In this document: positions 29,057 to 35,945 of the stretch, one piece after another
Position numbering within the stretch: position 1 is the stretch's first letter
How the letters are laid out: each line of letters begins with the position of its first letter
NCBI GenBank assembly: GCA_018240895.1
Contig: JAFEEX010000035.1
Location: 1 to 41,452, forward strand
Direction: 5' to 3'
Length of the DNA: 41,452 bases
Source: Pseudomonadota bacterium
Lineage (GTDB): Bacteria; Pseudomonadota; Alphaproteobacteria; Sphingomonadales; Sphingomonadaceae
Translations under genes and position numbers: made by a program
The notes under the pieces: model-generated
The model's input: the letters and a program-made list of their open reading frames with translations, nothing else
What the model was told of the DNA's origin: nothing
The model's database searches: none

Positions 29057-29464
29057 TCAATGCAAGGCATGAAGCCCGCACGGCTTGGCGCAATTGGGGT
29101 GGCCAACGGCCATACTGATCGCTCCCAGGATATCGGCGGCGTGAAACGGCTTCTGGATATAGCCGAGTGCAGTGGCCGGCGGCTGATCTATCTGATCGGG
29201 ATTGGCGGTGACAAAAATGATCGCCGTGCCGAATCGGCTGGCCAGACTCCGCGCGATCGCCGGCCCGGTCAGCCCGTCGCGCAGGTTGAGATCGACCAGC
29301 GCAACCTCAGGCCCGCGGCCGATCTGATCAGCGCCAAGCTGGTCGGACACGACGCCGACAACCTCATGCCCGGCGCCGGCGACAATCCCTTCAAGATCGA
29401 GCGCGATCAGGTGTTCGTCCTCAACTATCAACACACCGCCAACCGGATTCGCGCCTTGCATCAT
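29057..29464 (-). CDS. Single-domain response regulator
   Basis: A 135-residue stand-alone receiver with no output domain. The acidic pair is Glu15-Asp16, the phosphoacceptor is Asp58 (ALVDLNLRDG), Thr lies in FVTAN and Lys in YIQKPF. Its gene begins 2 bases after the stop of an EcfG-like sigma gene, so the two are surely co-transcribed. In Sphingomonas, single-domain receivers such as SdrG feed into or drain the PhyR phosphorelay; this one may do so, although it lacks the exact FATGUY motif described for that group. The short tail PNCAKPCGLHALH is unusual. Confidence 0.88.
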   Translation of the reverse strand: MMQGANPVGGVLIVEDEHLIALDLEGIVAGAGHEVVGVVSDQLGADQIGRGPEVALVDLNLRDGLTGPAIARSLASRFGTAIIFVTANPDQIDQPPATALGYIQKPFHAADILGAISMAVGHPNCAKPCGLHALH

Positions 29465-29466
29465 GG

Positions 29467-30129
29467 TCAGGCTGCCTGCGCCTGATGAGGCCGGCTGGCA
29501 TTGGCAACCCGGTTGAGCTCAGCAAACAGAAGATTGGCGGCATCGCCTTCGATCACGAAATCATGCCGCGAATCCGGCAATTGCCCGCCTTCGATCGCCG
29601 CGGACAACATCGCGCGGGCGCGGCAAATCCGGCTTTTGACCGTGCCAAGCGCCACACCGCAGATGCTGGCGATTTCTTCATAAGACATATCGCCCACCGC
29701 CACCAGGATCAGCGCATCGCTGTGCGTGTCCGGCAGCGTTGCAAATGCGCGCAGCACATCCGCCAGATTGACCGAGGCTTCCTGATTGCCGCTGGTCTGC
29801 AAGGTCCGTTCGGCAAGGTCCGCGTCATATTCTCCAACGAAGCGGCTGCGCCGCACTTCGCTGTAGAACTGGTTGCGCAGGATGGTGAAGGTCCAGGCCT
29901 TGAAATTGGTGCCTGCATGAAAGCTGGTCCGGGCGGACCACGCCTTCAGCAAGGTTTCCTGGGCCAGATCGTCAGCCCGCTCGCTGCATCCGGTAAGCGT
30001 CCGGGCAAAGGCCCGCAAATGGGGGGCGATGCGGGTCAATTCGGCGCGAAATTCGCTGTCGCGCAGCACATCATGCCGGAACGGTGAAGATCGGCGTTGT
30101 GTTTGCTCGCGCTGCGCCATTTCCGGCAT
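29467..30129 (-). CDS. Second EcfG-like ECF sigma factor
   Basis: A 220-residue ECF sigma factor. Region 2 (about 27-95) contains LRAFARTLTG, ADDLAQETLLKAW and NFKAWTFTILRNQFYSEVRR; region 4 (about 120-175) contains LPDTHSDALILVAVGDMSYEEIASICG and GTVKSRICRARAML. It closely resembles EcfG at 33241. A C-terminal tail of about 45 residues beyond region 4 is absent from that paralogue. The start at 30129 has GGAGCGGATC just upstream as ribosome binding site. A GGAAC-N17-TGTT match lies at 30160-30185, so it is likely induced by EcfG itself. A receiver gene follows in the same operon. Confidence 0.9.
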   Translation of the reverse strand: MPEMAQREQTQRRSSPFRHDVLRDSEFRAELTRIAPHLRAFARTLTGCSERADDLAQETLLKAWSARTSFHAGTNFKAWTFTILRNQFYSEVRRSRFVGEYDADLAERTLQTSGNQEASVNLADVLRAFATLPDTHSDALILVAVGDMSYEEIASICGVALGTVKSRICRARAMLSAAIEGGQLPDSRHDFVIEGDAANLLFAELNRVANASRPHQAQAA

Positions 30130-30396: not shown

Positions 30397-31194
30397 ATGC
30401 CGATACAACAGAACCTTGCCGCGATGTTGCCACCCCTGCGCCGCTATGCGCGGGCACTGTGCGGTTCGCAGCGGCACGGCGATGCCTGGGTGCGGGAACT
30501 GCTGGAAGCCGCGGTGACGGACAGCGCGCTGCGGCAGGAACTTGGCCGGGACCGGGTATCGCTTTACCGGGCCTTCACGCGGGTCTGGTCGCGCGGGCAA
30601 ATGGAACTGGCCGGCGAGGGTGCGGCTGCGCCCACCGGGCATGAGGCGGCGGTTCAGGCCAGGCTTGACCGTATCTCGGCCGAACACCGCCAGGCGTTGC
30701 TGTTGGTTACGCTGGAGGAATTCAGCGAGCGCGACGCGGGCGAAATCCTTGGAATATCCGCCGACCGCGTGATTGATCTGGTTGCTCAGGCCATCGCCGA
30801 AATCGATCGGGAGACAGCGACTCAGGTTCTGATCATCGAGGATGAGCCGCTTATCGCCATGCAACTGGAAGCATTGGTCCGAGACCTTGGCCACCGGGTT
30901 GTGGCGATGGCAGCAACCCGTAGCCAGGCAGTTGATGCATTTGACCGCACCGGTCCGGGGCTGGTGCTGGCCGACGTCCAGCTTGCCGACCACAGCAGCG
31001 GGATTGACGCGGTTGAGGATATTCTGCGGATCGGCCAGGTTCCGGTCGTGTTCGTTACCGCCTATCCCGAACGCTTGTTGACCGGCGAACGCCCGGAACC
31101 GACTTATCTGGTGACCAAGCCGTTTCGCGAAGAGGCAATGCGCGCCGCAATTGGTCAGGCGCTGTTTTTCGGATCAACTCAGGAAATCGGATAA
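30397..31194 (+). CDS. phyR: General stress response regulator PhyR
   Basis: A 265-residue anti-anti-sigma factor with the inverted layout specific to PhyR: an N-terminal sigma-like domain (about 1-140, with LPPLRRYARALCG and LLLVTLEEFSERDAGEILGIS) and a C-terminal receiver (about 143-265; acidic pair Glu148-Asp149, phosphoacceptor Asp193 in VLADVQLAD, Thr in FVTAY, Lys in VTKPF). When phosphorylated the sigma-like part is exposed and binds NepR, releasing EcfG. It converges on the kinase gene with 17 bases between, and is divergent from the second sigma gene. Confidence 0.97.
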   Translation: MPIQQNLAAMLPPLRRYARALCGSQRHGDAWVRELLEAAVTDSALRQELGRDRVSLYRAFTRVWSRGQMELAGEGAAAPTGHEAAVQARLDRISAEHRQALLLVTLEEFSERDAGEILGISADRVIDLVAQAIAEIDRETATQVLIIEDEPLIAMQLEALVRDLGHRVVAMAATRSQAVDAFDRTGPGLVLADVQLADHSSGIDAVEDILRIGQVPVVFVTAYPERLLTGERPEPTYLVTKPFREEAMRAAIGQALFFGSTQEIG

Positions 31195-31211: not shown

Positions 31212-32888
31212 CTATCCGCTCGTCATGCCCGGAACGGGGGGCGCGGCATCGCACACCGGCACCGTCAGCACGCAGGTTACGCCGGAGGGATCGAAACGCA
31301 GATCAACCGGTGACTGCAATTCGTGGCTGACGATCTTTTCGATAAGATCAGTGCCAAAGCCGCGGTGCTGCGGTGGCTGCACCGGTGGGCCGCCGCATTC
31401 ACGCCACTTTATCTGGCACGCTGCCGGAGAGATCAGGTGCCAGGCGACCGACACCCGGCCCTCCACCGTTGAAAGTGCCCCGTATTTTGCTGCGTTGGTT
31501 GCCAATTCGTGCAAGGCAAGCCCAAGCGACAGTGCATCCCTGGGGGCCAGCATCGCGTCTGGCCCGTCAATTTCGGCATGGCTGTCATCGGGATCAAGGT
31601 AGGGCGCAAGTTCGGACTTCACCACGTCGCGGACCGGGGCATCCTTCCAGTCACGTTCGGACAGCAGATCGTGCGTGGCGGACAGCGCCCTGATGCGCCC
31701 GGTCAGACTATCGGCAAATGCATCAAGGCTGCCGGACCGGCGGCGGGTCAGGGCAACGATCGACAGCACATTGGCCAGCGTGTTCTTGACCCGGTGGTTC
31801 AATTCGCGGGTCAATGATCTGCGGATCGCTTCCTGGGTGGCGAACGATTCCAGAATCAGCCGGTCATCCGCCGCACGGCGGATGAACAGCGATGTCAGCG
31901 CCAGCAGCAGCAGGCTGACAATGCTGCCGCCGATCAGTACCACTACCGAAGCCAGGGTCAGCCCGTCCTGTTCGTTTGACGTAACAACCAGCGTCCAGTT
32001 GCGGTCAGCGAATGCCATCTGGCGCTTGATCTGCCCGTCGTTGCTGGCCTCCTCCGGCACGATCGTTGCCAGCAGGTTCGCCTGCGACACCTGCCCGTCA
32101 TAGAGCGCTATGCTGGCGCGCCCGTGATGAAAGCCCTGACCGATCGTGCTGACAAAATCCTGCAGGCGTAGCGGAGAATAGGCAAAACCCTTGGGCCGGG
32201 CGACGCTCGGCGCGCCGTTTGCGGTGCGGGTATAGACCGGAACAACCACCAGCACCCCCGGGTTGGGCGGCTTTCCTTCATCCTGGATCAGGTGGACAAT
32301 GCCCGAAACGGTGGGCCGTCCGGTACGCAATGCCTTGTCAATCACCGCGCGCCGGACTTTCTCCGAATACATGTTGAAGCCCAGCACACGGCGGTTCGCC
32401 GCGTCCTGCGGTTCCAGCAGTTCGATTACGGCCACGTCGGCATTGGGGTTCGCCGGAACCGGTTTTACCGTAAGCGCCCCCGTCGCCGGCATCGTGCGCC
32501 ATCTGGCCTGGTAAGCCGCACAGTCCCTGGCCTTCATCCACCGCGCCCAGCCCATGCCCAGCGCGCCGCGCGCAAGGTGATTCTGGCTCAAATCCTCCAC
32601 AAACCGGCCAAATTCCTGCGGAGAAACCTGCTCCGAAACCGACAGCAAGGATGCCGCAGCATTGAGGTATGCGATATTTTCCGCGGCCTTGCGTTGCAGC
32701 TCGCCGATGAACGCGGTGGTATCGCGGTCCAGTTCCAGCCGGCGTTCGCGCGCTTCGGATTGTTCGATGTTGCGCATGATCAGCACCGTCACCGCCAATC
32801 CGAAGATCAGCAGCGCCAACGGCAATCCCCGCGGATAACGCAGGAACCAGGTCCGGCGCAGCGCACGCTTTTCAAGCCGCTTTTCCAT
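31212..32888 (-). CDS. CHASE-domain HWE/HisKA_2 sensor kinase (PhyK/PhyP-type)
   Basis: A 558-residue membrane kinase; the start at 32888 (MEKRLEKRALRR) was preferred over 32936. Two membrane segments (about 20-38 and 312-336) enclose a periplasmic CHASE domain (about 60-290). The HisKA_2/HWE part has LNHRVKNTLANV (His365), N-box HELATNAAKYGALS, and WRECGGPPV plus GFGTDLI. It lies between phyR and nepR-ecfG, as do PhyK of Caulobacter and PhyP of Sphingomonas; PhyP was reported to act as a PhyR phosphatase. The motifs look complete, so which activity dominates is open. An EcfG-type promoter lies at 32963-32987. Confidence 0.92.
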   Translation of the reverse strand: MEKRLEKRALRRTWFLRYPRGLPLALLIFGLAVTVLIMRNIEQSEARERRLELDRDTTAFIGELQRKAAENIAYLNAAASLLSVSEQVSPQEFGRFVEDLSQNHLARGALGMGWARWMKARDCAAYQARWRTMPATGALTVKPVPANPNADVAVIELLEPQDAANRRVLGFNMYSEKVRRAVIDKALRTGRPTVSGIVHLIQDEGKPPNPGVLVVVPVYTRTANGAPSVARPKGFAYSPLRLQDFVSTIGQGFHHGRASIALYDGQVSQANLLATIVPEEASNDGQIKRQMAFADRNWTLVVTSNEQDGLTLASVVVLIGGSIVSLLLLALTSLFIRRAADDRLILESFATQEAIRRSLTRELNHRVKNTLANVLSIVALTRRRSGSLDAFADSLTGRIRALSATHDLLSERDWKDAPVRDVVKSELAPYLDPDDSHAEIDGPDAMLAPRDALSLGLALHELATNAAKYGALSTVEGRVSVAWHLISPAACQIKWRECGGPPVQPPQHRGFGTDLIEKIVSHELQSPVDLRFDPSGVTCVLTVPVCDAAPPVPGMTSG

Positions 32889-32960
32889 TACGCCCCGTCT
32901 GTCCCCGGTTGCAGACTTGTCGCAGCCTGATGGCAAGTCTTCGCCACGGTCACATTTCAG

Positions 32961-33059: not shown

Positions 33060-33248
33060 TTGTTGACCCGTTCACCCGGCAAATCCCCGTTACCGAATCC
33101 GAAGCGCAAGCAGGCGCGGCGGCGGGCATCGCGCAAACCTGATTGGGCCGATGGACTGCGCAAGCTTTATGACGATGTGGTGGCCGAACCCTTGCCCGAC
33201 AGTTTCGAACAGCTGTTGAACAAGCTTGATCAGGCCAGTGATGATTGA
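33060..33248 (+). CDS. nepR: Anti-sigma factor NepR
   Basis: A 62-residue protein that holds EcfG inactive and is taken up by phosphorylated PhyR. The hallmark block GLRKLYDDVVAEPLPDSFEQLLNKLD (about 32-57) covers the two conserved helices; the N-terminus is basic and flexible. No ATG or GTG is available: translation must start at TTG 33060 or TTG 33063, with GGAG at 33053-33056; the spacing favours 33063. The weak start may keep NepR low relative to EcfG. It overlaps the ecfG start by 8 bases. Confidence 0.93.
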   Translation: MLTRSPGKSPLPNPKRKQARRRASRKPDWADGLRKLYDDVVAEPLPDSFEQLLNKLDQASDD

Positions 33249-33792
33249 CCGCACTGTGCCGGGTGCCTCGGGCAAAGCCGCGCCGTCGGATAAGTTTCGC
33301 AATGATCTGGTCGCTCTGCTGCCCCATCTCAGAGCATTTGCGCGCGGCTTGTGTACCCGTTCGGACCTGGCTGACGATCTGGTTCAGGAAACGGTGATGC
33401 GGGCCTGGCGCGCGCGCGACCGGTTTGCGGCCGGGACCAATCTGAAGGCCTGGACTTTCACGATCATGCGCAATCATTTCCTCAATGACCTGCGCAAAAA
33501 TCGCCGGATGACGCAGCTTGATCAGGACGCGGCCGAAACGGCGCTGGTGGTGCGCGCGACCCAGGACGCGGGCATTCACCTCAGCGATTTGCAACGTGCG
33601 CTGGAACAATTGCCTGATGAACGGCGGGAGGCGCTCCTGCTGGTTGGCGCTGGCGAATTTTCCTATGAGGAAGCGGCGCGGATTTGCGGGGTTCCCATCG
33701 GGACGATGAAAAGCCGCGTTGCACGCGGCCGCAGCCAGTTGCGCGACCTGATCGACCCGCCAGATGGGCGCGCGGTTCCGCCAGGCGGATAG
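33241..33792 (+). CDS. ecfG: General stress response sigma factor EcfG
   Basis: A 183-residue ECF sigma factor directing RNA polymerase to GGAAC/CGTT promoters. Region 2 has LRAFARGLCTRSDLADDLVQETVMRAW and NLKAWTFTIMRNHFLNDLRK (about 28-85); region 4 has LPDERREALLLVGAGEFSYEEAARICG and GTMKSRVARGRSQL (about 115-170). The ATG at 33241 lies inside the nepR end, giving coupled translation and balanced amounts of sigma and anti-sigma; an in-frame start at 33226 is less likely. It converges on sodB, 22 bases away. Confidence 0.96.
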   Translation: MIDRTVPGASGKAAPSDKFRNDLVALLPHLRAFARGLCTRSDLADDLVQETVMRAWRARDRFAAGTNLKAWTFTIMRNHFLNDLRKNRRMTQLDQDAAETALVVRATQDAGIHLSDLQRALEQLPDERREALLLVGAGEFSYEEAARICGVPIGTMKSRVARGRSQLRDLIDPPDGRAVPPGG

Positions 33793-33814: not shown

Positions 33815-34426
33815 TCAGGCGGGGTATTCCCATGCACTATCGCTGGCAAAATTCCTGGCGGCGAAGTGCCAGTTCAGGATCTGGGTAGCCGCTGTCAGAT
33901 AGGCCTTCCTGTCGTTCTTGCGATCAAGGTAATAGGCGTGTTCCCACACATCGATTACCAGCAACGGCTTCAGTCCGTCGGTGATCGGGCATCCCGCATC
34001 GTGGGTCGTGATCACTTTCAGGCTGCCGCCTTCCGCAACCAGCCAGGCCCAGCCTGACCCGAACTGCCCCAGCCCCTGTTCAACCAGCGTGTCGAGCAGC
34101 GCCTGCGTCGATCCGAAAGCAGCGTCTATCGCAGCAGCCAGAGCGCCGTCGGGCTGACCCTCTACGGGGGACAGGCTGTGCCAGTAGAAACCGTGGTTCC
34201 AGGCCTGCGCAGCCTGGTTGAAGAGTTTGCCATCCTTGCGATTTGCTGCTGCCAGAACGATCGCGTTCAGCGCGGCGTCGGCAAGGTCGGTTCCGGCAAC
34301 CAGTTCGTTGGTCTTGTCGACATAGGCCTTGTGGTGCTTGCCGTGATGGACGGCCAGTGTCGCGGCTGAAATCGCAGGCTCCAACGCAGTTTCGGCAAAA
34401 GGCAATTCGATCAGCTTGATGGACAT
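33815..34426 (-). CDS. sodB: Superoxide dismutase, Fe-type
   Basis: A 203-residue cytoplasmic enzyme that turns superoxide into oxygen and hydrogen peroxide. Metal ligands are His27 (VHHGKHH), His78 (AWNHGFYW), Asp159 and His163 (VIDVWEHAYYLD). Gln73 in QAAQAWNH supports the iron form rather than manganese. No signal peptide. The upstream region has an exact EcfG promoter match at 34562-34586, about 130 bases before the start, which ties it to the general stress response genes next door. Confidence 0.95.
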   Translation of the reverse strand: MSIKLIELPFAETALEPAISAATLAVHHGKHHKAYVDKTNELVAGTDLADAALNAIVLAAANRKDGKLFNQAAQAWNHGFYWHSLSPVEGQPDGALAAAIDAAFGSTQALLDTLVEQGLGQFGSGWAWLVAEGGSLKVITTHDAGCPITDGLKPLLVIDVWEHAYYLDRKNDRKAYLTAATQILNWHFAARNFASDSAWEYPA

Positions 34427-34561: not shown

Positions 34562-34586
34562 AACGGCGTCGGATGGAAATGGTTCC
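34562..34586 (-). promoter_or_regulatory. EcfG promoter upstream of sodB
   Basis: Minus strand GGAAC (34586-34582), 16 bases, CGTT (34565-34562): an exact fit to the EcfG consensus. Transcription would begin near 34555, giving sodB a leader of roughly 130 bases. Confidence 0.65.
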
Positions 34587-34634
34587 CGAAATTGAAGAAA
34601 ATGCCGGACCGGACTTTTTGGTGGACATCCCGAT

Positions 34635-34720
34635 AAACGCGGGCCCCCTGCACCGCGTGCAAGAGGCCCGGAAGGTCATCTGCAGACAGTCGGGGGGGAA
34701 GGGCTTGCTGCAGATGTCAT
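34635..34720 (-). ncRNA. Candidate stress sRNA, GsrN-like
   Basis: No protein gene fits 34427-34832. On the minus strand, after an EcfG-type promoter (34728-34752), transcription from about 34720 would give first a hairpin, CATCTGCAG (34716-34708) with CTGCAGATG (34685-34677), whose 22-base loop contains seven C in a row (34698-34692) next to CCCTT. A second hairpin follows, 34670-34657 with 34653-34640, 14 bp with a 3-base loop, then CGTTTAT as a weak terminator tail. Caulobacter GsrN is also EcfG-type (SigT) dependent and uses a C-rich exposed loop to bind G-rich mRNA leaders. Homology itself is not shown; structure and promoter are. Confidence 0.5.
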
Positions 34721-34725
34721 AGGAA

Positions 34726-34752
34726 GGAACCTTCCAACCGTGATCGGGTTCC
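34726..34752. promoter_or_regulatory. Bidirectional EcfG-type promoter before the candidate sRNA
   Basis: GGAACC (34726-34731) and GGTTCC (34747-34752) form a perfect inverted repeat around 15 bases. Each strand therefore reads GGAAC-N16-GGTT. The minus-strand copy (GGAAC 34752-34748, GGTT 34731-34728) faces the candidate sRNA; the plus-strand copy faces the end of the PotD-like gene, where no plus-strand gene exists. Confidence 0.5.
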
Positions 34753-34832: not shown

Positions 34833-35945
34833 TCAGCCAGCCCGGACGCGGGCAAAGGCCGCTTCATAGAGTGGCTGCATCGCGGGACGGTATCTGGCAT
34901 ACTCGCACTTGGCCAGTTGCGCCGCAGGCGGAAAGATAACCGGATTGTTCTTGTAGTCTTCCGGCATCAATGCCTTTGCCGCCGCGTTGGGGGTGGGGTA
35001 AAGGATTGTTTCGGTGATCTTTCTGTCCACTTCGGCATCAAGCAGATAATTGATGAAGGCGTGCGCATTTTTGGGGTGAGGCGCGCCGTTGGGGATGCAC
35101 AGCGAATCCGAGCTTAGCTGACTGCCTTCGCGCGGCAGTACGAAGGCAAGATCGTTGTCCTCGATCATCACCTGGGCGATGTCGCCATTGTATTCCAGCA
35201 CCAGATCGACTTCGCCCCGCAGCAAAAGATCCTGTCCATTGTCTTCGTGAAAGACCTTCACGAACGGCTTCTGCTTTTCCATCATCGCCTGAATGGTCTT
35301 GACGTCCTCAGCGGTCAGGGCGTTGACCGACTTGCCCAGGTACTTGCCATAAAGCCGGAACATATCGCCCGCCTCTGACAGCCAGCCGATCCGGCCTTTG
35401 TATTGATCGGAATCGAACAGCACCTTCCAGCTGTCGGGTACGCCTTTCACCCTGGACTTGCGATAACCGATTCCCAGCGTCAGCCAGGTGTACGGCACCG
35501 AATATTTTCGCCCCGGATCATAGAGAAGCTGGATGAAGGCCGGATCGATGTTCTTCAGGTTGGGGAGCAGCGCATGGTCCAGCGCCATGATCATTTCGGC
35601 GGCGACCATCCGTTCGACAAAGTCGTTTGACGGCACGATCACGTCATAACCCGGGTTTCCGGCGCGCAGCTTGTCAAACAGTTCATCATTGCTGGAAAAC
35701 AGCGTCAGGTTAACGTCAATGCCGCTGTCGCCCTTGAAATCGGTCAGCGTGCTGTCGCCAAGATAGGTTCCCCAATTGTGAAAATTGAGCCGTGGCTCTT
35801 CGCCGGTTGCGGTGATCTTGTGGTCGCCCGTCAGGCCCGGCTTGCCGCAACCGGCCAGCCCGCCCAGACTGATGCCGATCGCGGCGGCGCCCAGCCGCTG
35901 CAACAGCGATCTGCGCCCCAGACGGGCAATGGGGATCGCGTTCAT
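34833..35945 (-). CDS. PotD/PotF-like polyamine-binding lipoprotein
   Basis: A 370-residue extracellular solute-binding protein of the spermidine/putrescine group. The N-terminus combines a twin-arginine-like RRSLLQ and a lipobox LAGC, so the mature protein is lipid-anchored outside the inner membrane. [15 protein letters not shown] and [14 protein letters not shown] match PotD/Pot[16 protein letters not shown] and [14 protein letters not shown] line the cleft. The ATPase and permease genes (potABC) that should accompany it are not present on either side, so it is an orphan here. The ligand is inferred from family only. Confidence 0.88.

Follow-up and report, generated by a model that had tools for sequence, protein, structure and literature searches.

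The gap between sodB and a solute-binding-protein gene, next to the general stress locus of a sphingomonad genome, raises the question of whether it holds a small RNA gene, and how such an RNA would relate to GsrN of Caulobacter crescentus. The window, meaning the whole stretch of DNA that was analysed, comprises positions 1 to 41,452 of contig JAFEEX010000035.1 (assembly GCA_018240895.1). A sequence-only reading had proposed a GsrN-like stress RNA on the minus strand of this gap, which is flanked by sodB (34426) and the solute-binding-protein gene (34833). Genes of the general stress locus lie within 5 kb of the RNA, and the sigma factor gene among them is called EcfG because it adjoins nepR:

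30397–31194, plus strand: phyR (PF22029, PF22233, PF00072)
31212–32936, minus strand: CHASE/HWE histidine kinase gene (PF03924, PF07536)
33060–33248, plus strand: nepR, anti-sigma factor (PF18557)
33226–33792, plus strand: ecfG-type sigma factor gene (PF04542, PF08281)
33815–34426, minus strand: sodB, Fe/Mn superoxide dismutase (PF02777, PF00081)

Within the gap, the following features were assigned. The transcription start of the putative small RNA would lie near 34721.

34728–34752, minus strand: EcfG-type promoter match GGAAC N16 GGTT, from pattern search (GGAAC 34752–34748, GGTT 34731–34728)
34631–34723, minus strand: putative small RNA gene of approximately 90 nt, predicted from a full-length match to covariance model R3
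34677–34716, minus strand: hairpin I, 9-bp stem CATCTGCAG/CTGCAGATG (34716–34708 with 34685–34677)
34686–34707, minus strand: C-rich apical loop CAAGCCCUUCCCCCCCGACUGU of 22 nt, the proposed seed, with C7 at 34698–34692
34640–34670, minus strand: hairpin II, terminator-like, 14-bp stem (34670–34657 with 34653–34640), followed by CGUUUAUC
34562–34586, minus strand: separate, perfect EcfG-type match GGAAC N16 CGTT before sodB, from pattern search

The elements named by the sequence-only reading, that is the promoter match, the 9-bp hairpin with its 22-nt loop and seven consecutive C, and the fully paired 14-bp hairpin, were all found in place on the minus strand. All 14 pairs of hairpin II are formed, including two G-U pairs, around a GCG loop, and the fold of the window RNA beat 200 of 200 dinucleotide shuffles in each of two runs (z −4.08 and z −4.37). 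The gap had also been described as free of protein genes. No ORF of at least 60 aa is contained in the RNA, and on the plus strand an ORF begins at 34740, inside the promoter match. The tail CGUUUAUC after hairpin II is poor in U, which was counted against the small RNA reading, and a simple terminator scan called no terminator. The U tract following this hairpin is longer in many relatives than in the window.

Conservation could not be judged from BLASTN, which found no match beyond the window's own genome among 61 genomes at E ≤ 0.01. At E ≤ 1 within the genus, the matches near q42–68 among 12 loci read sit inside another gene, acyl-CoA ligase-like by eye, and were rejected as copies of the RNA. 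BLASTN misses the RNA, and a sequence search alone would have wrongly read it as not conserved. The closest relative (L003, G086) carries the same plan upstream of sodB with different stems, and further copies were found via a pattern combining the EcfG promoter with a C tract. Covariance model R3 was built from 46 sequences, excluding the window and the genomes G086, G008, G073 and G107. It recovered the window copy at 34723–34631 on the minus strand with 40.1 bits (E 8.3e-9), the next best match in the window reaching 9.3 bits, and it also recovered the copies of the four excluded genomes with 31.9–46.1 bits. This held-out match is the best sign against chance. Model R1 scored the window copy at 69.9 bits, a value that is not independent because the window copy was part of the training set of R1.

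With a threshold of E ≤ 1e-8, R1 had matches in 94 of the 149 genomes sampled from the genus and in 71 of the 246 sampled from the order; all 71 belong to the GTDB family of the window, and the two samples overlap, with at least nine of the 71 genomes present in both. A weaker match in the order sample was found in G213 (E 3e-5). A DNA pattern derived from the family returned at least 119 stretches from named species genomes, and R1 confirmed 86 of the 119 listed (57 of 80 plus 29 of 39). As these contigs were found by a family-derived pattern, the confirmation shows range and not independence, and the counts do not add up because some named contigs are identical to contigs in the genome samples. 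Among the matches listed, the confirmed contigs are of Novosphingobium and Erythrobacteraceae types (Qipengyuania, Porphyrobacter, Tsuneonella, Croceibacterium and others), with the lineage looked up for two genera and the others placed by name; metagenome-assembled genomes named only Sphingomonadales, Sphingomonadaceae or Proteobacteria are also in the set. Novosphingobium subterraneum (L158) is among the species with a copy. The 33 of 119 without such an R1 match were, judged by name, from other groups, including two Alphaproteobacteria (Seohaeicola and Hyphomonas) and one uncultured bacterium.

In a class sample of 318 genomes, model R2 was strong in three of the four genomes of the window's family and in none outside it. 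At E ≤ 0.1 it matched 27 of the 318, of which 23 lie outside the family (best 38.5 bits, E 1.2e-6, in G655). Thirteen of these outside loci were mostly terminator-like, none of the 13 had the EcfG pattern between −60 and +20, and no match to the GSR proteins of the window occurred within them; they were taken as chance. Two of the outside matches, L271 and L274, do carry C runs in a loop. At L271 (G610, another alphaproteobacterial family), a hairpin with a C7 loop is followed by a terminator-like hairpin, the EcfG motif is absent nearby, and the locus is perhaps a different C-loop RNA. Searches over 40 genomes used stricter filters and scored few candidates, so that weak relatives may be missed.

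Three alignments were used to examine the structure. For A1, a MAFFT alignment of thirteen copies, unguided RNAalifold returned the same two helices, which comprise 23 pairs; in 16 of these, pairing is preserved through changes on both sides. Under the 25-pair structure, 87.4% of the A1 cells pair compared with 35–48% in slid controls, and both-side changes occur in 17 of 25 pairs compared with 9.3 ± 1.8 in shuffles; the shuffles ignore relatedness, and the slid controls (29–49%) are the safer comparison. A2 holds 64 matches (62 distinct) and A3 holds 46, without the window and the four close relatives. Both gave 93.0% pairing cells and both-side changes in 19 of 25 pairs, counts that lean towards the R1 structure because the rows were fitted to it. 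Two short antisense matches (L109 and L110) are included among the 64 rows of A2 and in R2. By helix, both-side changes affect 8 of 11 (A1), 8 of 11 (A2) and 7 of 11 (A3) pairs in helix 1, and 9 of 14, 11 of 14 and 12 of 14 pairs, respectively, in helix 2. A C run of at least six is present in the loop of all 62 sense rows of A2. Its greatest length ranges from 6 to 16 and the flanking letters vary, and many members conserve more than the C run (CCCGUCCAA). Both helices are conserved with covariation, and the hairpins and the C run recur in related genomes.

The promoter motif keeps a fixed distance to this structure. In all 62 A2 members GGAAC stands 28–29 nt upstream of the first model position, and the same −28/−29 spacing is seen in all 86 members from named-species contigs, whereas 93 of 1300 control windows contain GGAAC. 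The window itself contains six occurrences of GGAACN16-17[CG]GTT, with 0.91 expected. A strict −10 (CGTT or GGTT) is found in 31 of 62 members and in 22 of 86 named members, which was counted against the small RNA reading, as was the GGTT of the window. In members such as L122, L124, L125, L127, L128 and L134–L147, the −10 following GGGAAC is often CATT-like, which suggests a relaxed or lineage-specific EcfG −10. The match in the window is palindromic (GGAACC...GGTTCC, 34726–34752), so both strands score, the plus strand at 34726–34750; a plus-strand transcript from it would be antisense to the solute-binding-protein gene. The alternative that the locus is no gene, and combines the terminator of the solute-binding-protein gene with a chance promoter match, would fit the position of that gene, which is also on the minus strand and ends at 34833. 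Against it, the promoter motif, both hairpins and the C loop recur as a set at loci with differing neighbours, and we regard this alternative as highly improbable.

The surroundings of the RNA differ between the window's close relatives and the remaining family. The window, G086, G008, G073 and G107 carry the RNA 0.2–2.4 kb upstream of sodB and in the same orientation as that gene. Among the R1-confirmed named loci from the matches listed, phyR is divergent and 139–1549 bp upstream of the RNA in 77 of 86, and the remaining nine contain just 73–886 bp upstream of the RNA. The position near sodB, as originally described, is that of the window and its close relatives. At 29057–30129 (minus strand), upstream of phyR in the window, there are two genes that by eye resemble those of a response regulator and a further ECF sigma factor, in the place where named relatives have the RNA. 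At L003, L004, L005 and L006, a gene for a small membrane protein (transglycosylase-associated type, by eye) lies between the EcfG-like site and sodB; no such ORF was found upstream of sodB in the window.

This arrangement bears on a second alternative, in which read-through of a weak terminator from the promoter at 34752 would make the hairpins a cis-acting regulatory 5' UTR of sodB. It would be in keeping with the weak U tract of the window and with sodB, which is encoded on the same strand and starts 204 nt downstream. Yet the RNA points away from phyR, and not into sodB, in the 77 named loci mentioned above, U tracts follow hairpin II in many relatives, and a separate EcfG-type match lies between the RNA and sodB. 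We consider a leader of this kind quite unlikely. With that perfect match 135 nt upstream of it, sodB itself may be a member of the EcfG regulon.

Ten genomes of the genus sample were chosen among those in which the RNA was not strongly matched, and in seven of them PhyR was not found at E ≤ 1e-40, which was counted in favour of the small RNA reading. The presence of PhyR does not imply the RNA, however, which was counted against it: PhyR was found in 14 of 16 genomes from other genera of the family that were chosen for having no strong R1 match. Eighteen PhyR loci (17 genomes) without a strong R1 match were inspected: an EcfG-like site lies 58–158 bp upstream on the other strand in 14, several of these sites resemble promoters of another gene (by eye), and a C-loop hairpin was suggested only in L347. 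There (G314), approximately 140 bp upstream of phyR and divergent from it, an EcfG site is accompanied by a hairpin whose loop reads TCACCTGCCCCCGA and by another strong hairpin. A remote counterpart in another genus is possible, with an R2 score of just 13.9 bits. With filters off, R2 gave 25.6 bits at PhyR locus L353, which has no EcfG motif in the preceding 80 nt, and 15.3 bits at L348.

The search for targets did not return a candidate mRNA. The sequence-only reading had pointed to G-rich leaders and named katG as a target of GsrN. In 30 katG leaders from 23 genomes, with start codons guessed by script, a G4 run occurs within 220 nt in 13 and a G5 run in one, and neither of the two full-length katG genes of the window's own genome has a G4 run in its leader; with G tracts this inconsistent, katG is not supported as a target. 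The perfect loop complement GGGAGGGGGG had 44 sites in nine genomes (30 inspected) compared with 42 for the reversed pattern, and GGGGGRRGGG had 115 matches in four genomes (29 loci inspected) compared with 139 for the reversed pattern. A recurring complement site was rejected as it lies inside a coding gene, methionyl-tRNA synthetase-like by eye, and a site at L391, approximately 12 nt before an ATG, was rejected because it occurs in one genome only. The prediction of G-rich targets yielded none, with perfect complements not above the reversed pattern, which was counted against the small RNA reading. The target sites of GsrN printed in the cited sections of Tien et al. (2018; PMC5869019) are only about 7–14 nt long, and short seeds of this kind would escape a perfect-complement search.

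A C-rich sponge, which titrates a protein or another RNA and does not pair with mRNAs, would agree with the variable length and flanks of the C run and with perfect mRNA complements that are not enriched. Against it, GsrN has a comparable C loop that pairs with mRNA (PMC5869019, cited sections), and many members preserve more than the C run, namely CCCGUCCAA. A sponge appears unlikely.

We consider it likely that the locus instead encodes a small RNA that acts in trans in the general stress response, is transcribed by EcfG and pairs with G-rich mRNAs through its C loop. In the mechanism that we infer, from transcription and its dependence on EcfG to target pairing and the direction of regulation, stress would act via PhyR to free EcfG from NepR, and EcfG would then transcribe the RNA of approximately 90 nt. 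Hairpin I would display the C run in an open loop and hairpin II would end transcription, while the loop would pair with short G-rich mRNA stretches and alter how stable these mRNAs are or how they are translated, in the manner of Caulobacter GsrN. If this is true, Novosphingobium and Erythrobacteraceae possess a post-transcriptional arm of their general stress response for which Rfam gave no matching family. Culturable strains offer a way to test expression, EcfG dependence and targets on the basis of the covariance model, the position of the promoter and the phyR locus. Existing start-site data could serve in part, such as the TSS-seq data of N. aromaticivorans DSM 12444 (GEO GSE150944, PMC7471390), which come from unstressed mid-log cultures.

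With regards to known RNAs, Rfam 15 matched only a tRNA in the window and gave nothing above the gathering cut-off at 17 member loci (E ≤ 5). The best Rfam scores over the RNA were 29.0 bits for ctRNA_p42d (cut-off 50, E 0.014, L134) and 29.9 bits for sodF_sRNA on the other strand of L140 (cut-off 46). CcsR1 (RF02791) and related CCUCCUCCC stress RNAs have C-rich motifs and a link to stress in common with the RNA. These RNAs are controlled by RpoH, and L084 scores 17.6 bits against the CcsR1 cut-off of 65.3. A sphingomonad GsrN-like RNA was not found in the open-licence literature searched. The conserved RNA family described here, placed at the general stress locus, was matched neither in Rfam nor in that literature.

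GsrN of C. crescentus, as described in the cited sections of Tien et al. (PMC5869019), is a 106-nt RNA with a SigT/EcfG promoter, an exposed C tract in its 5' half and an intrinsic terminator at its 3' end. Its homologues typically adjoin ecfG/nepR/phyR, and its C loop pairs with mRNA. It has in common with the window family the 5' C-rich loop, the 3' terminator hairpin and the closeness to ecfG/nepR/phyR, and the EcfG-type motif of the family may be the counterpart of its promoter. The same sections report BLASTN matches of GsrN confined to Caulobacteraceae, propose rhizobial counterparts from position, promoter and transcript data, and describe no apparent gsrN-like gene in Erythrobacter litoralis. 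The GsrN-like RNAs of Rhizobiaceae and other Rhizobiales share the EcfG site, the closeness to the GSR locus and the exposed C-rich 5' loop (PMC5869019, cited sections); they are likened here by description, and R2 is strong in no class genome outside the window's family (n = 318).

For direct comparison, locus L365 was taken as GsrN-type from a pattern of the printed GsrN target sites, which matched one of 385 class genomes, with phyR nearby. L365 and the window loop have CCCCCCCGACT in common, which contains CCCCGAC and thereby the complement of GUCGGGG, the katG site given in the cited sections (PMC5869019). L365 folds with its C tract in a loop next to another, inner hairpin, and the stretch that precedes the terminator is longer, whereas in the window RNA a single stem closes the C loop and leads into the terminator, and the inner hairpin is absent. 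R2 and R3 scored L365 at 7.6 and 10.6 bits over its 3' part only and left the C-loop part unmatched. Because the models do not match the GsrN-type locus, the RNA is not filed as GsrN. The sequence-only reading was thus supported in part: the evidence favours an RNA with a C loop and a terminator-like end, preceded by an EcfG-type promoter match at the general stress locus of Sphingomonadales and conserved with covariation, but does not support its identity as a GsrN.

By analogy, the RNA probably works like GsrN. More tentatively, and at somewhat less than an even chance, it could be the sphingomonad orthologue of GsrN, diverged beyond sequence recognition but retained at the phyR/ecfG locus, controlling a separate regulon without katG, and lost or replaced in other sphingomonad genera, which would make an RNA arm ancient in the alphaproteobacterial general stress response. 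If so, the published view of Erythrobacter as being without a gsrN-like gene would be wrong.
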